Origin: Enhydrobacter aerosaccus
Lineage (GTDB): Bacteria; Pseudomonadota; Alphaproteobacteria; Reyranellales; Reyranellaceae
DNA: 64,000 bases
Assembly (NCBI RefSeq): GCF_900167455.1
Contig: NZ_FUWJ01000007.1
Span: 124,001 to 188,000, forward strand
Direction of reading: 5' to 3'
Shown: positions 68 to 6,134 of the stretch, in pieces
How positions within the stretch are numbered: the stretch's first letter is position 1
How the letters are laid out: every line of letters begins with the position of its first letter
Program-made: the position numbers and the translations under genes
The notes under the pieces: model-generated
The model's input: the letters and a program-made list of their open reading frames with translations, nothing else
Databases searched by the model: none
What the model was told of the DNA's origin: nothing

Positions 68-346
68 TCACTCGGACCTCTCTTGGGAAACCCGGTGCGT
101 CGCCCTCAGCCGGTAGGCGACAGCGCCGTAGGTCGCGACGCAGTAGGGAACGAGGAAAGTCAACGCCAGCTTCGTGAAGTCGAGGTGTCCCGTGCCCATC
201 AATGCATCCCCCTGGTTGATCAGGTTCAGGATGCTGCCGACGACCGCTGCCACGGCGAATGACCGACGCGGGACACCATCGCCGACGCAGAAATGCCAAA
301 TAAGGCCGAGCCGAGGCATAAGTGGCTGACGTCGCTGCTCAACCAT
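68..346 (-). CDS. NrtS-like small membrane protein
   Basis: A 92-residue protein with two predicted membrane segments. Residues 28-80 carry the signature of the NrtS (nitrate/nitrite transporter accessory) family: V-V-G-S-I-L-N-L-I-N-Q-G-D-A-L, then a conserved V-P-Y-C-V-A-T-Y-G-A-V. The family is known only as a small inner-membrane protein associated with nitrate assimilation genes; its biochemical role is weakly established. The start overlaps the stop of the anti-sigma gene by 8 nt, so it is translated as the third gene of the sigma/anti-sigma operon. An internal ATG at residue 10 would remove the hydrophilic head and is an alternative start. The pairing with a stress sigma factor rather than nitrate genes is notable. 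Confidence 0.75.
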   Translation of the reverse strand: MVEQRRQPLMPRLGLIWHFCVGDGVPRRSFAVAAVVGSILNLINQGDALMGTGHLDFTKLALTFLVPYCVATYGAVAYRLRATHRVSQERSE

Positions 347-995
347 CCCGGGAGTGGCGCCATCTTACCAGCCGCGGGCCAAGCAGGGCGCTCACGGCGG
401 TCAGCAGGGCGACACTTCCGACCTGCCACACGATGACCATCACGCGAGCATCTTGTTGATGGAACAAACGAAGGCCGAAGTCGGCCAGCGCGGCGGCGGC
501 AAGGCCGCCCAGCCCGACCGAAAGCACGGGCGCAAGCGGAGCACGGCGATGGAGCATCAGCGCCATGGCTGCCCCCGGGACCAAGCCGATCATGATGATG
601 CCCGGCAGACAGGCCCAGTCTGACCGCAATATCAGCCCGCCCGGACCGGACTCCATCTCGTGCAGGCAACCGGCGCCGAGGGTACCGAGCCAGATCAGCA
701 AAGGCAGGACCGGAACCCAACGCTCCCAATGAGGGCGTCCTGGCACACCGGCGCAGAGCGCAGCCATAGCTGCCGTAACCGCCACCATCAGAGCCGCTGC
801 TTCTTCGAGCATCCAACCTGGCTCAGCGAGCTTAAGGGCCAAGTCCGGCCGAAGGCCCATCTGCATCACGACGAAGGCAACCCACGGAGCTGAGAGCGCA
901 AGCCAAATGATCAACCCAATCACCGGCGGCTTCAGCCGACGGACCGGAGTCCTGACGTCTGCGGCCAATGCATTGATGAGGTCTTCCGTCTTCAT
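339..995 (-). CDS. nrsF: NrsF-type anti-sigma factor (DUF1109)
   Basis: A 218-residue protein with a short cytoplasmic head (about 1-22) followed by six hydrophobic segments, the architecture of the DUF1109/NrsF family. In Caulobacter, NrsF holds the ECF factor SigF at the membrane and senses stress through conserved cysteines; here Cys81, Cys110 and Cys129 are candidate sensors. It starts 2 nt after the sigma factor stop, so the pair is translationally coupled. Family membership rests on topology, length and the operon partner. The many GTAACC-N16-CGAA promoters in the window agree with an ECF16/NrsF system. Confidence 0.85.
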   Translation of the reverse strand: MKTEDLINALAADVRTPVRRLKPPVIGLIIWLALSAPWVAFVVMQMGLRPDLALKLAEPGWMLEEAAALMVAVTAAMAALCAGVPGRPHWERWVPVLPLLIWLGTLGAGCLHEMESGPGGLILRSDWACLPGIIMIGLVPGAAMALMLHRRAPLAPVLSVGLGGLAAAALADFGLRLFHQQDARVMVIVWQVGSVALLTAVSALLGPRLVRWRHSRDG

Positions 996-997
996 GG

Positions 998-1558
998 TCA
1001 GTGCTTTTTGAGGCCAAGGCGCAGGGCCTTCATGGCCCGATGCATCGACGTCTTTAGCGCCGCGACCGACATTCCGCTGACCGCCGAGGCCTCTTTGAGT
1101 GACATCTCCTTGATCCTCAACAGTTCTACGGCCTTCCGTTGGCCGTGCGGGAGGTCTGCAAGCGCCCGCGACAACATTTCAGAATCCGCCATTTGATCTA
1201 CTGGTTCCTTCGTTTCATCGCTTGAAATGGTTTCAGGCAGAATCTCGACGGCTACTTCGCCTCTCGAGCGTCGCACTTGCCGGCGCTGGGCATCGGCTAG
1301 CCGGTTTCGCGCGATGGCCGACAACCAGGGCAGGAACGGCCGCCCCGGATCGTAGGTATGGCGAACCTGATGCAGCGACAGCAGCACATCCTGGACGATG
1401 TCCTCGACGTCTTCCGAGCCCGTCCACCGCCCCGAGACCATACGCCGGACAAGCGGCGACGCCGCCGTCAGCAACCGCGCGTAGGCGGCCGCATCGCCCT
1501 CCTGCGACAGGCGCATGAGTGTCGCCAGTTCGGATACGTCTGTTCGAGTATCGGCCAC
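998..1558 (-). CDS. sigF: ECF sigma factor, SigF/ECF16-like
   Basis: An ECF sigma-70 factor. Region 2 contains E-D-V-E-D-I-V-Q-D-V-L-L and the -10 recognition stretch R-P-F-L-P-W-L-S-A-I-A-R-N-R; region 4 near the C-terminus contains M-S-V-A-A-L-K-T-S-M-H-R-A. It is followed immediately by nrsF, which defines the ECF16-type pair. The open frame extends upstream to an ATG at 1639, but the extra 27 residues are Arg/Gly-rich and unlike the family, so I prefer the GTG at 1558; an AAGGAGGT at about 1598 fits neither start well, so the start is uncertain. It should direct transcription from GTAACC-N16-CGAA promoters, of which five exact copies are in this window. I see no such promoter in front of the sigma gene itself. 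Confidence 0.88.
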   Translation of the reverse strand: MADTRTDVSELATLMRLSQEGDAAAYARLLTAASPLVRRMVSGRWTGSEDVEDIVQDVLLSLHQVRHTYDPGRPFLPWLSAIARNRLADAQRRQVRRSRGEVAVEILPETISSDETKEPVDQMADSEMLSRALADLPHGQRKAVELLRIKEMSLKEASAVSGMSVAALKTSMHRAMKALRLGLKKH

Positions 1559-1832
1559 AGCGAATCGTAACGGCCGTCTGTACCGGCCGCTACCTCCTTG
1601 TGGTAAGCCTCTACGCTTCTTGAATGAAACTGGCAGCACGCATTCCGGCGGTGCCGGATTGTCGAAGATCAGTTGAGTTCCGGCAGACCGATCCCGGCTT
1701 GTCTCAATGTCTTTTCGAGGGTCGGCGTTTGACGAACGGCCGCGCCAGCCTCATGGGTCAATCGGCTTGATCCGCTCGACAATCGGCCGCACCAGCCCTT
1801 GGTCGCCGTCCGGAATCGCCCTGCATTTTTTG

Positions 1833-1931: not shown

Positions 1932-3053
1932 GTGGAGATACATGCGGGAATACCGACGGCCGAGATCGAGATTCGCCCTGACTTGTCCCATGTCCTCGAT
2001 GCCGCCTGGGCCAGGATCGGCGCACCGGGGACCTGGTGGAACGCTGCCGAACGTGTCGCCATTGCCGCAGAGACGCGGCAGGCCGTGCACTGCGACTTCT
2101 GCCGCGCGCGTCGAGAGGCAGTCTCGGCCTCCATGGTGTCCGGACGGCACGACAACGCCGTGGGCCTGCCGTCGCCTGCGATCGAAGCGATCCATCGCAT
2201 TCGCACCGATCCCGGCCGGCTTGGGCGCGGCTGGTACGATTCGGTCATAACGGCGGGTCTGTCGGAAGAGTGCTATGTCGAGATGGTGTCGGTAATTGCA
2301 GTCGTGGTCGCGAACGACACGTTTCGGCGAGCCGCCGGCTTGCCGGCTCTTGCCCTGCCACGTGCACTCCCGGGCGAGGCCACGCGCCGCCGTCCGGCCG
2401 GGGCCAAGCCTGGCCTGGCCTGGATGCCGACGCTCGCGCCTGAGGACAGGACAGCCGATGACCCGGATCTTTATCAAGACCATCCCGGGCCGCGACAGCG
2501 CGGCGGCGGCAACGTGCACCGAGCGCTCAGCCTCGTGCCGGACTCGATGCTTCACTGGTGGGACATGTTCGAGATCATGTACCTGCCGGCCGCCGCGATG
2601 CGCGATTTCACCCGTGAATATCGCGCCATATCGCACGCCCAGATCGAGATGCTGGCCGCCAGGGTCGCCGCCCTCAACCAGTGTATCTATTGAACGGCCA
2701 GCCATGCGGCCCTGCTCCGTGCGAGCGGCAAACACGGCGAGGCGCAATACGGCTTCGCGGGAATCGTCGACGGCACGACACACACCGGCGTCGTTCGGGA
2801 AAAGGAACTGCTCGCCTTCGCCGACGCCGCATTTGCTGAAAATGCAAAGTCGCTCGCTGCGGCGCGCGAGGCGCTCGTCCACGCATTGGGCGTCGCCGCC
2901 ATGGTCGATGCAGCGGCCGTCATTGCCGGCTTCGATGGCATCACCCGGATCGCCGATGCGACGGGCATTCCGCTCGAACCACCCAAGGCGGAGCAGACCG
3001 CGGACCTCCGGGCGACATTGCAGCTCGACGCGTTCCAATCCGCGAAGTGGTGA
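1932..3053 (+). CDS. AhpD-like selenoprotein with CxxU active site
   Basis: Predicted 373-residue carboxymuconolactone-decarboxylase/AhpD-like protein read through an in-frame UGA at 2691-2693. The frame continues for 119 more sense codons. Around the UGA it reads C251-I-Y-U254-T-A-S-H258, which aligns with the AhpD active site C-x-x-C-x-x-x-H, so the UGA sits on the reactive second cysteine. An earlier C-D-F-C lies near residue 55. The GTG start is chosen for the strong GGAGGGGAG upstream and for the SigF promoter at 1833. A SECIS-like hairpin follows the UGA at 2709-2729. The next gene is a Cys-type AhpD paralogue and the one after a HAD hydrolase, probably one operon. Expected role: thiol/selenol peroxidase or disulfide reductase chemistry in the cytoplasm. 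The alternative, a gene cut by a nonsense mutation, is unlikely given the exact catalytic position and intact downstream frame. Confidence 0.85.
2691..2729 (+). promoter_or_regulatory. UGA (Sec) codon and SECIS-like hairpin
   Basis: After the UGA at 2691-2693, positions 2709-2711 (GCC) pair with 2727-2729 (GGC), a CU bulge follows at 2712-2713, then GCTC 2714-2717 pairs with GAGC 2723-2726 around the loop CGTGC. A bulged U and a GU in the apical loop are the two hallmarks of bacterial SECIS elements bound by SelB. Folded by eye only. Confidence 0.65.
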
Positions 3054-3094: not shown

Positions 3095-3712
3095 ATGACA
3101 GTGAGCGATCGAAGCTGCAGCACGGCCCACATTGCCCCGTTGGAGGACGCCGAACTGGTGAGTGTCCACGACGTCATCGATCTTGCGCGAAAGTTCAGCG
3201 GCTACGTGCCGACCAGCATGCGCATCATGGCCCGCAAGCCCGCGCTCCTGCGCGCGTTCAGCGCCCTTATCAGCGCCGTGATGCGGGAACCCGGGGAGAT
3301 CCCGGCGGACCTGAAATGGCTGATCGCTCACTCGGTGAGCGCCAGCGCGGGATGTCGCTACTGCCAAGCGCATACCGCCGCCAATTCAGCCAAGGCCGGG
3401 CTTCCCGTGGCGAAGATCGAGGCGCTAATGGAATACGAGTCCAGTGCGCTCTATTCGGCGGGAGAGCGGGCGGTCATCGCCCTTGCACTGGCCGCGGGCC
3501 GGGTTCCGAACGAGACGACGCGCGCACATTTCGACACCTTGCGGGCGCATTTCAGCGAAGGCGGCATCGTCGAGGTCGTCGCGGTGATTTCTTTGTTCGG
3601 TTGGCTCAACAGGTGGAACGACACCTTCGCCAGCGATCTGGAGCAGAGCCCAATGGAATTCGCCAAGGCCCATCTTGGCGCATCGGGTTGGTCGCCCGGA
3701 AAGCACGGCTAG
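3095..3712 (+). CDS. AhpD-like carboxymuconolactone decarboxylase family protein
   Basis: A 205-residue protein with the AhpD active-site signature C-R-Y-C-Q-A-H-T (C-x-x-C-x-x-H) around residue 85 and the usual helical surroundings (A-x-x-A-G-L-P-x-x-K-I-E-A-L). It is the ordinary cysteine counterpart of the selenoprotein just upstream. The ATG at 3095 is preferred over an upstream GTG because of the ATGGAGA ribosome-binding region. The gap to the selenoprotein stop is 41 nt and to the HAD gene 76 nt, so the three genes probably share the SigF-type promoter at 1833. Expected to act on peroxides or organic disulfides; the substrate is unknown. Confidence 0.85.
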   Translation: MTVSDRSCSTAHIAPLEDAELVSVHDVIDLARKFSGYVPTSMRIMARKPALLRAFSALISAVMREPGEIPADLKWLIAHSVSASAGCRYCQAHTAANSAKAGLPVAKIEALMEYESSALYSAGERAVIALALAAGRVPNETTRAHFDTLRAHFSEGGIVEVVAVISLFGWLNRWNDTFASDLEQSPMEFAKAHLGASGWSPGKHG

Positions 3713-3788: not shown

Positions 3789-4487
3789 ATGACAGGAACG
3801 CACGATGACAGGCTGACCGGGATTCGCGCCTGTGTATTTGATGCCTATGGCACTTTGTTCGACTTCGCGTCGGCGGCCGCTGGTTGCGCGGACGTCCTGG
3901 GCGACAAGACAAGCGCGCTGACCGCCTTGTGGCGCGACAAGCAGCTCCAGTACACTTGGCTGCGCACGCTTCAGGGTGCCCACGCCGACTTCTGGAGAGT
4001 GACGCGGGACGCGCTTGAGTATGCGCTGGACGCTCTCGACCTGCGCGACGCTGCCCTGCCGGACAGGCTCATGTCACTTTATTTGAATCTGCAGGCCTTT
4101 CCGGAGGTGCCCGAGACGCTTCGCAGGCTCAAGGCCGCCGGCATCAAGGCAGCAATCCTGTCCAACGGAACGCCGAAGATGCTCGATGCCGTGGTGTCAA
4201 ACGCCGGTCTGGGCGACCTGTTCGATCACGTGATCTCGGTCGAAGCCGTGGGAGTATTCAAGACCGATCCAAGAGTCTATCAGCTGGCCGTCGATTGGCT
4301 GGGCGTGGCGCCTCGGGAGATAGCATTTCAGTCGTCCAATGCCTGGGATGCCTATGCCGCGTCCGCCTTCGGCATGCGCGTGGTGTGGTGCAATCGATAT
4401 GGGCAGCGGCCCGAGCGCTTGCCCGGAAAACCCGACCAACAGGTGCGCACGCTTGCCGAACTCATCCCGATCCTCGGCCTGTCATAG
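3789..4487 (+). CDS. HAD-family haloacid dehalogenase type II-like hydrolase
   Basis: 232 residues with all HAD motifs: motif I F-D-A-Y-G-T-L-F with nucleophile Asp18, motif II L-S-N-G-T, the lysine in F-K-T-D-P-R-V-Y, and the type II haloacid dehalogenase signature F-Q-S-S-N-A-W-D-A near residue 183. Such enzymes hydrolyse (S)-2-haloacids through an aspartyl-ester intermediate, though many family members have other substrates. The ATG at 3789 places motif I at the standard distance from the N-terminus. It is the last gene of the putative selenoprotein operon; the next gene is convergent. Confidence 0.87.
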   Translation: MTGTHDDRLTGIRACVFDAYGTLFDFASAAAGCADVLGDKTSALTALWRDKQLQYTWLRTLQGAHADFWRVTRDALEYALDALDLRDAALPDRLMSLYLNLQAFPEVPETLRRLKAAGIKAAILSNGTPKMLDAVVSNAGLGDLFDHVISVEAVGVFKTDPRVYQLAVDWLGVAPREIAFQSSNAWDAYAASAFGMRVVWCNRYGQRPERLPGKPDQQVRTLAELIPILGLS

Positions 4488-4503: not shown

Positions 4504-5304
4504 TCAATGAGCGAACGTGGCAATCATTCCGGCCTCAACCCAGCCGCGCAACAGCGCGGCTGCGCGGGCCGGTGATTGCTCCTCGCCGACATGCGGCGCC
4601 AGCGCTTGGCAGAGATCGGGGAAGGGCCGTCCCTCGACCATTGCGGTAAGCATGGCTGCTTCGTCCGGCTCCATCGAGCGGAACTGCGTGGTGCGCTCGG
4701 GCCGCCAGATCACCCATGCCACTGAGTCCGATGTAGCGCCGACCTCTAGGTTGCCCGGCTCTACTTCTTCGCGTTTCTGCCAGCCCTGCGGCACTTCGTA
4801 CGAAAGCGAGAGCCGGCGCAGGGAGGGCAGGGGGTTGAAGGCGAGCGTCTCCCACGCTTCCGCGGGCAGTGCCACAAGTTGTTCCGCAGCAAGCGGCTCG
4901 GCATCCGGCGCATCGAACGCTTCGCCCAGCGTCCATTCGAAACGCGCCATCTCCGCGGCTGCCGGCGACTTGATGTAGGGCTCCGTGCTCGCCAGAAAGT
5001 CCGCGAGATGCCGGCCGAACCAGCGCACCGAGCGATAGCGTGACGGATGGGCGGCAATATAGGCGCGCGCCATGTGATCGAAATCGGCCGGGCCGGCCAT
5101 CGCCATCAGGCCCGGATAGTCCGCCGTGAGCACCTCAATCAAGCGCCATGCGTAAGCATCGCGATAGACGCCCAGCAGGGTAAGCCGGTCGGTCTTGCGT
5201 GTGTCGCGCACCGCACCAGAGAAGGAATCACTGGTGATTAGCAGATAGTCTTGAAAGGCGCGCTGCAGGCCTGCAAGCGAGCCGGTGTTCGCGCTCATAT
5301 TCAT
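4504..5304 (-). CDS. bufC: BufC, DUF2063 partner of the bufferin maturase
   Basis: 266 residues. The N-terminal half (L-A-G-L-Q-R-A-F-Q-D-Y-L-L ... V-Y-R-D-A-Y-A-W-R-L-I-E-V-L) is a DUF2063 domain, as in the recognition partners (MbnC, BufC) of MNIO/DUF692 enzymes; the C-terminal half is a small PqqD-like domain. The ATG at 5304 overlaps the bufB stop (ATGA), so BufB and BufC are co-translated, as expected for a heterodimeric RiPP maturase. It should help BufB bind the BufA2 precursor. It is the last gene of the operon. Confidence 0.87.
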   Translation of the reverse strand: MNMSANTGSLAGLQRAFQDYLLITSDSFSGAVRDTRKTDRLTLLGVYRDAYAWRLIEVLTADYPGLMAMAGPADFDHMARAYIAAHPSRYRSVRWFGRHLADFLASTEPYIKSPAAAEMARFEWTLGEAFDAPDAEPLAAEQLVALPAEAWETLAFNPLPSLRRLSLSYEVPQGWQKREEVEPGNLEVGATSDSVAWVIWRPERTTQFRSMEPDEAAMLTAMVEGRPFPDLCQALAPHVGEEQSPARAAALLRGWVEAGMIATFAH

Positions 5305-6134
5305 GCCGCCTGCCTCGTCGCCTCGGCGGCGATTCGACGGGCGATGTCGAGCTCGGCGACCAGCTCGAGGTAGGGCGGGATGTCGGCATCGCGCTCGATC
5401 ATAGTCGGCACGCCGGGGAAGAGCCGTACCGCCTCGGCGTAGAGGTCCCACACGTCGGCGATGATCGGATGATCGTGCGTGTCGATGATGTGCGTGCCTT
5501 TGTTGAGGTGCCCGGCGAGATGGAACTGCCGCACTCGCGCCCGCGGTATGGCGCGAAGGTAGGTGAGTGCATCAAACTCGTGATTGAAAGCGCTGACATA
5601 GACATTGTTGACGTCGAGCAGGACCTCGCAGTCGGCGCGACGGGTGAGCTCGGCGATGAAGTCCCACTCCGTGAGCTCGGAGGCGGCGTAGGTTACATAG
5701 CTCGACGCGTTCTCCAGCACCAGCCGCCGGTCGAGATAGTCCTGCACGCGCTTCACGCGCTCGGCGACATGGTCGAGCGCCTCCTCGGTGTAGGGAAGAG
5801 GCAACAGGTCGTGCATGTTGAGCCCACGCAGCCCCGTGAAGCAGAGATGGTCGGAGACCCACATCGGCTGCACGCGTTCGATTAGGCCCTTGAGGTCCTC
5901 GAGATAGCGCATGTCCAAGGGATCGGTCGAGCCGATCGACAGCGAGACGCCATGCAACGCCATCGGGTAGTCGCGCCGGATACGGTCGAGCCAGTAGAGC
6001 GGGGCGCCGCCCGGCACCATGTAGTTTTCGCTGATCGCCTCGAACCAGCTCACCTTGCCGGGGTTCGCGATGATGTCCTCGTAGTGGTCCGTGCGCAGCC
6101 CGAGGCCAAAATCGATGACGCTTTTCATGGTCAA
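5301..6134 (-). CDS. bufB: BufB, MNIO (DUF692) multinuclear iron oxidase
   Basis: 277 residues of the DUF692/MNIO family, TIM-barrel enzymes with a di- or tri-iron centre that oxidise cysteines of ribosomal precursor peptides. Conserved metal-ligand segments are visible: L-H-G-V-S-L-S, W-V-S-D-H-L-C-F, D-V-N-N-V-Y-V-S-A-F-N-H, Q-F-H-L-A-G-H and D-T-H-D-H-P. In the bufferin pathway the product is thought to turn cysteines of BufA into copper-binding thio-oxazoles. It lies 72 nt after bufA2 and overlaps bufC, so bufA2-bufB-bufC form one operon behind the SigF-type promoter at 6484-6509. Confidence 0.92.
   Translation of the reverse strand: MTMKSVIDFGLGLRTDHYEDIIANPGKVSWFEAISENYMVPGGAPLYWLDRIRRDYPMALHGVSLSIGSTDPLDMRYLEDLKGLIERVQPMWVSDHLCFTGLRGLNMHDLLPLPYTEEALDHVAERVKRVQDYLDRRLVLENASSYVTYAASELTEWDFIAELTRRADCEVLLDVNNVYVSAFNHEFDALTYLRAIPRARVRQFHLAGHLNKGTHIIDTHDHPIIADVWDLYAEAVRLFPGVPTMIERDADIPPYLELVAELDIARRIAAEATRQAA

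Follow-up and report, generated by a model that had tools for sequence, protein, structure and literature searches.

Does the in-frame TGA at positions 2691–2693 of the window (the whole 64,000-nucleotide stretch of DNA that was analysed) end a gene, or is it read as selenocysteine (Sec) inside a longer one? A preliminary description, made by eye, had proposed the latter for a plus-strand AhpD-related gene at 1932–3053, with Sec in place of the second Cys of an AhpD-type active site. We took up this proposal with family models, surveys of related genomes, a search for the Sec insertion machinery and an analysis of codon constraint around the UGA.

The read-through frame and its family

Translation reproduced the proposed frame, which runs from a GTG start at 1932 to a TGA stop at 3051–3053, together with the C-I-Y-U-T-A-S-H motif around the UGA and the 119 sense codons that lie 3' of it. 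With TGA taken as Sec, positions 1932–3050 give 373 residues including a single Sec at residue 254, and a purine-rich Shine-Dalgarno-like stretch, GGGAGGGGAG, is found at 1920–1929, upstream of the GTG. The read-through product matched the model NF041238, "alkylhydroperoxidase-related (seleno)protein", over all of its length (positions 1–357 of 357) with 445.6 bits (E-value 1.4e-133), the curated cut-off being 175 bits. The CMD domain PF02627 was also recognized (24.1 bits, just over the Pfam gathering cut-off of 23); in contrast, the score was 12.9 bits against TIGR00777 (AhpD sensu stricto; cut-off 191.95) and 42.1 bits against TIGR01926 (cut-off 81.8), which places the protein in an AhpD-related family rather than in AhpD proper. 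When solved structures were searched with a profile built from 34 relatives, the matches were confined to the C-terminal half, to 6k40 (3.3e-14), 3c1l, 2pfx, 2oyo and 2prr, with M. tuberculosis AhpD (1gu9) as a weak match. An AlphaFold2 model built on four sequences only, the window protein and three relatives, had a pLDDT of 37. The label "AhpD-like" is to be read loosely: AhpD/CMD proteins are matched by the C-terminal half only, with the Glu, the CxxU and the His in register, and the whole protein is twice the length of AhpD and has a second CxxC in its N-terminal half.

This family was first reported in 2005 from the Sargasso Sea selenoproteome, as "hypothetical protein 1" with a CxxU motif (PMC1088965), and a 2026 review lists it as an AhpD-related protein with CxxU under NF041238 (PMC13188914). 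The window protein is therefore a further, ordinary member of a family already described, not a new one. The expectation that annotation would lose the gene at the UGA needs correcting accordingly, as the family is already modelled as a selenoprotein and software using NF041238 is equipped to recognize it.

Conservation of the TGA among relatives

Within the order, 29 matches above the NF041238 cut-off (28 plus the window gene) were found in 21 of 76 genomes, and an even sampling of the class (385 genomes) yielded 48 such matches (47 plus the window gene, which is counted in both sets) in 27 genomes; every one of these matches, 29/29 and 48/48, contains exactly one in-frame TGA. In the 51 distinct sequences that we inspected in detail the TGA is at the Sec codon itself in all cases, and no Cys-containing member occurred among the 29 order and 48 class matches. 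The preliminary description had named relatives with neither Cys nor Sec at this position as grounds for abandoning the reading, and none of the 51 is of that kind. A model match continuous across the UGA and one in-frame TGA in every above-cut-off relative put the read-through frame far beyond chance. PMC1088965 counts Cys homologs of "hypothetical protein 1"; our phylum-wide sample of 398 genomes produced no further member at an E-value of 1e-25, so these homologs were not encountered, and a plasmid search returned no relatives. Two apparently broken copies were seen, of which one is split across frames and one is partial with two TGAs (G025:C73:7244-8288 and G027:C546:38503-38997).

Selenocysteine machinery

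Since absence of the Sec genes had been the other stated ground for rejection, we searched the host genome (G000; 6.77 Mb in 30 contigs) and found all four. The genes selA (578 bits) and selB (457 bits) and the tRNA-Sec gene selC, with anticodon TCA by ARAGORN, are consecutive on contig C23, and selD (435 bits) is on contig C15, apart from this cluster; the three protein matches and the tRNA are all above cut-off. The selenoprotein gene is not near selA in this genome, which has no second NF041238 member above cut-off; the closest named relatives found are two Reyranella MAGs (74–77% identity).

In the class sample selA was present in 27/27 carriers of the family vs 29/358 non-carriers (Fisher p 3e-26, with genomes treated as phylogenetically independent). 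Within the order the association is uninformative because selA is nearly universal there (69/76 genomes); four of the 21 order carriers (G006, G016, G032 and G042) had no selA match, and all four are draft assemblies of 140 to 770 contigs. In eight genomes (G049, G082, G165, G197, G259, G300, G352 and G429) selA is 2.1–4.5 kb from the NF041238 gene. The latter is on the strand opposite selA in these eight, and the closer cases are consistent with a site just beyond selB.

A SECIS-like hairpin and codon constraint

Sec insertion in bacteria is modelled with a hairpin that has a loop of 3–9 nt, a stem of 4–16 bp, a G at loop position 1 or 2, a distance of 16–37 nt from the UGA and a minimum free energy (MFE) of -7.5 kcal/mol or less (PMC13188914). 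The plus-strand hairpin at 2714–2726 (stem GCUC/GAGC, apical loop CGUGC) lies 24 nt after the UGA, has a 5-nt loop with G second, and can be extended from 4 to 6 bp (2712–2728), all within these ranges. As to energy it is borderline: the 17-nt, 6-bp hairpin alone has -6.8 kcal/mol, slightly above the threshold, which is reached only with flanking sequence (-8.9 kcal/mol for 2709–2730). The preliminary description had pointed to a hairpin with a GU-containing loop and a bulged U; the hairpin and its loop stand, while the bulged U falls outside the conserved core. An Rfam scan of the window at the gathering threshold gave no match.

As the MFE of the local 55 nt is no better than that of shuffled sequence (z 0.45), support for the hairpin comes from conservation and not from energy. 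The stem pairs hardly vary and, apart from one exchange of C-G to A-U at the innermost pair, are too conserved for covariation to be informative, and so we turned to constraint on synonymous codons, scored over 175 codon columns with a z that treats sequences as independent and hence ranks columns rather than giving probabilities (mean 1.3, standard deviation 2.4). The highest score was that of codon UGA+11 (AGC in 48/51, z 12.3), followed by +3 (z 9.1), +8 (z 8.8) and +2 (z 8.2). At UGA+8 the codon is CTC in 50/50 Leu, vs a background of 26%; at UGA+9 Arg is encoded by CGT or CGG in 50/50 sequences and never by CGC, which accounts for 42% of the Arg codons of these genes, more than any other; and at UGA+10 the third base is G in 51/51 across six different amino acids. 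This codon-level constraint is the strongest evidence for the SECIS-like element. Codons UGA+2 and UGA+3 (2697–2702), upstream of and outside the hairpin, are constrained as well (ACC in 41/42 Thr and AGC in 38/44 Ser), perhaps as a lower SECIS stem. The divergent members L085, L086 and L087 retain only the CUC/GAG core of the stem.

Catalytic residues and proposed mechanism

The AhpD-type catalytic residues of the protein, E239-x11-C251-x2-U254-x3-H258 (2646–2705, plus strand), are invariant in 34/34 aligned relatives. In M. tuberculosis AhpD the proton relay consists of Glu118, Cys130, His132, Cys133 and His137 (PMC3141380), and the spacing of E239, C251, U254 and H258 equals that of its Glu118, Cys130, Cys133 and His137. 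The N-terminal CxxC (C54-D-F-C57; 2091–2102, plus strand), the sole unusual feature of this selenoprotein, is kept in 31/34 aligned relatives. The remaining three (L085–L087) have a short deletion over it, and as they lack it yet keep the CxxU it is probably accessory.

In the reading that we favor, SelB and Sec-tRNA(Sec) decode the UGA by means of the in-frame hairpin, and Sec254 would take the place that Cys133, the second Cys of the motif, has in M. tuberculosis AhpD. The E239/H258 proton relay would activate Sec254, which could then attack a peroxide or disulfide substrate; C251 would resolve it as a selenenylsulfide, to be reduced in turn by a thiol reductant, and C54/C57 may relay electrons or bind metal. 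By analogy, then, the activity would be that of an AhpD-type peroxidase or disulfide reductase. If C54/C57 and the CxxU acted together within the single chain as a two-site redox relay, the protein would be a self-contained Sec-based AhpD variant with an internal electron donor and not a plain Cys-to-Sec swap; we regard such a relay as rather unlikely.

Gene neighborhood

Downstream, 41 nt after the selenoprotein stop codon, lies a Cys-type AhpD-like (peroxidase-related) gene with the motif CRYCQAHT (3095–3712, plus strand; PF02627 37.3 bits, TIGR01926 67.5 bits and below cut-off), a possible operon partner, and after it a haloacid dehalogenase type II gene (3792–4487). A role of the AhpD-like gene as a fixed partner found no support, as we detected it near the selenoprotein gene in only one compared relative, and there on the opposite strand, most loci having been compared with only about 1.5 kb of flank. 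At one locus, L054, homologs of both the Cys-type AhpD-like and the haloacid dehalogenase genes lie downstream on the opposite strand. Further along, on the minus strand (4504–6134), is a bufferin-type maturation pair comprising a BufB-like maturase of the MNIO family (377 bits, above cut-off) and an HvfC-like protein (34.7 bits, below cut-off).

The region 339–1639 (minus strand), which runs divergently to the selenoprotein gene, encodes a sigma-70 (ECF-like) factor, a possible regulator of the selenoprotein, and an adjacent membrane-protein-like product, possibly the anti-sigma factor of the former. Relatives of both are also near the selenoprotein gene at L054 and L026, and a relative of the membrane-protein-like gene is near it at L056.

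Weighing the alternatives

One alternative takes the UGA for the stop that it is in the standard code, with the downstream half a decayed or separately translated ORF; the unexceptional local folding energy would suit this. Against it, conservation at the protein level continues through the UGA in all relatives, none of which has TAA, TAG or a sense codon in place of the TGA. H258 and the remaining AhpD core are encoded 3' of this codon, and codon constraint rises just beyond it; we consider an ordinary stop very improbable. A sequencing error or a point mutation of a Cys codon (TGC/TGT) in one genome would require a single base change, and other AhpD-like proteins do have Cys here, but the in-frame TGA recurs in every above-cut-off relative from 21 order and 27 class-sample genomes, at the exact position in all 51 distinct sequences, leaving this explanation a negligible chance. 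The selenoprotein reading, with Sec in place of the second Cys of the AhpD-type site, has behind it the family model, the complete Sec machinery, the universal TGA, the co-occurrence with selA and the codon constraint, and on this predictive evidence we put the probability of a genuine NF041238 selenoprotein, as to both Sec insertion and family membership, at roughly 0.93.

Instead of a peroxidase, the selenoprotein may be a Sec disulfide/thiol oxidoreductase or, like AhpD, a redox adaptor that serves an AhpC-type protein; the N-terminal CxxC would then be the exchange partner or a metal site. Retention of that CxxC in nearly all aligned relatives points this way, as does the role of AhpD as the adaptor that completes the AhpC/AhpD system (PMC3141380). 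The residues of the AhpD proton relay are just as compatible with a peroxidase, however, and the immediately neighboring genes that we examined did not include an ahpC. A non-peroxidase role keeps a lesser, still appreciable, chance, and we lean mildly towards a peroxidase over other thiol-redox activities.

The by-eye call of a recoded UGA is confirmed by this analysis, which also fixes its anatomy, i.e., the UGA, the SECIS-like hairpin and the catalytic residues. The comparative work adds that TGA is universal in the family across the sampled Alphaproteobacteria, that selA is occasionally close by, and that the second CxxC is near-invariant, none of which we found stated in the family literature. 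The prediction of the family goes back to 2005, and we found no experimentally tested function for it in the literature.

Comparison with known systems

Compared with NF041238 itself (AhpD_rel_CFYUT), the window protein has a full-length match, the same CxxU and the C-x-[YF]-U-T pattern, and differs in having CIYUT rather than CFYUT; it is otherwise a typical member. With M. tuberculosis AhpD (1gu9, 1knc) it shares the E-x11-C-x2-C/U-x3-H arrangement and, in its C-terminal half, probably the all-helical CMD fold; in contrast, it has Sec for Cys133, Tyr253 at the position of His132 (likewise Tyr50 in P. aeruginosa PA0269; PMC3141380), and twice the length, with a CxxC of its own in the additional N-terminal half. 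The peroxidase-related enzymes of TIGR01926 (6k40, 3c1l, 2pfx, 2oyo and 2prr), the best solved-structure matches to the C-terminal half, differ in having Cys rather than Sec and a single domain of ~190 residues. Finally, PMC1088965 sets down as separate families its other selenoproteins of AhpD-like (COG2128) and CMD-domain type, in which a CxxU likewise lies within an AhpD or a CMD domain.
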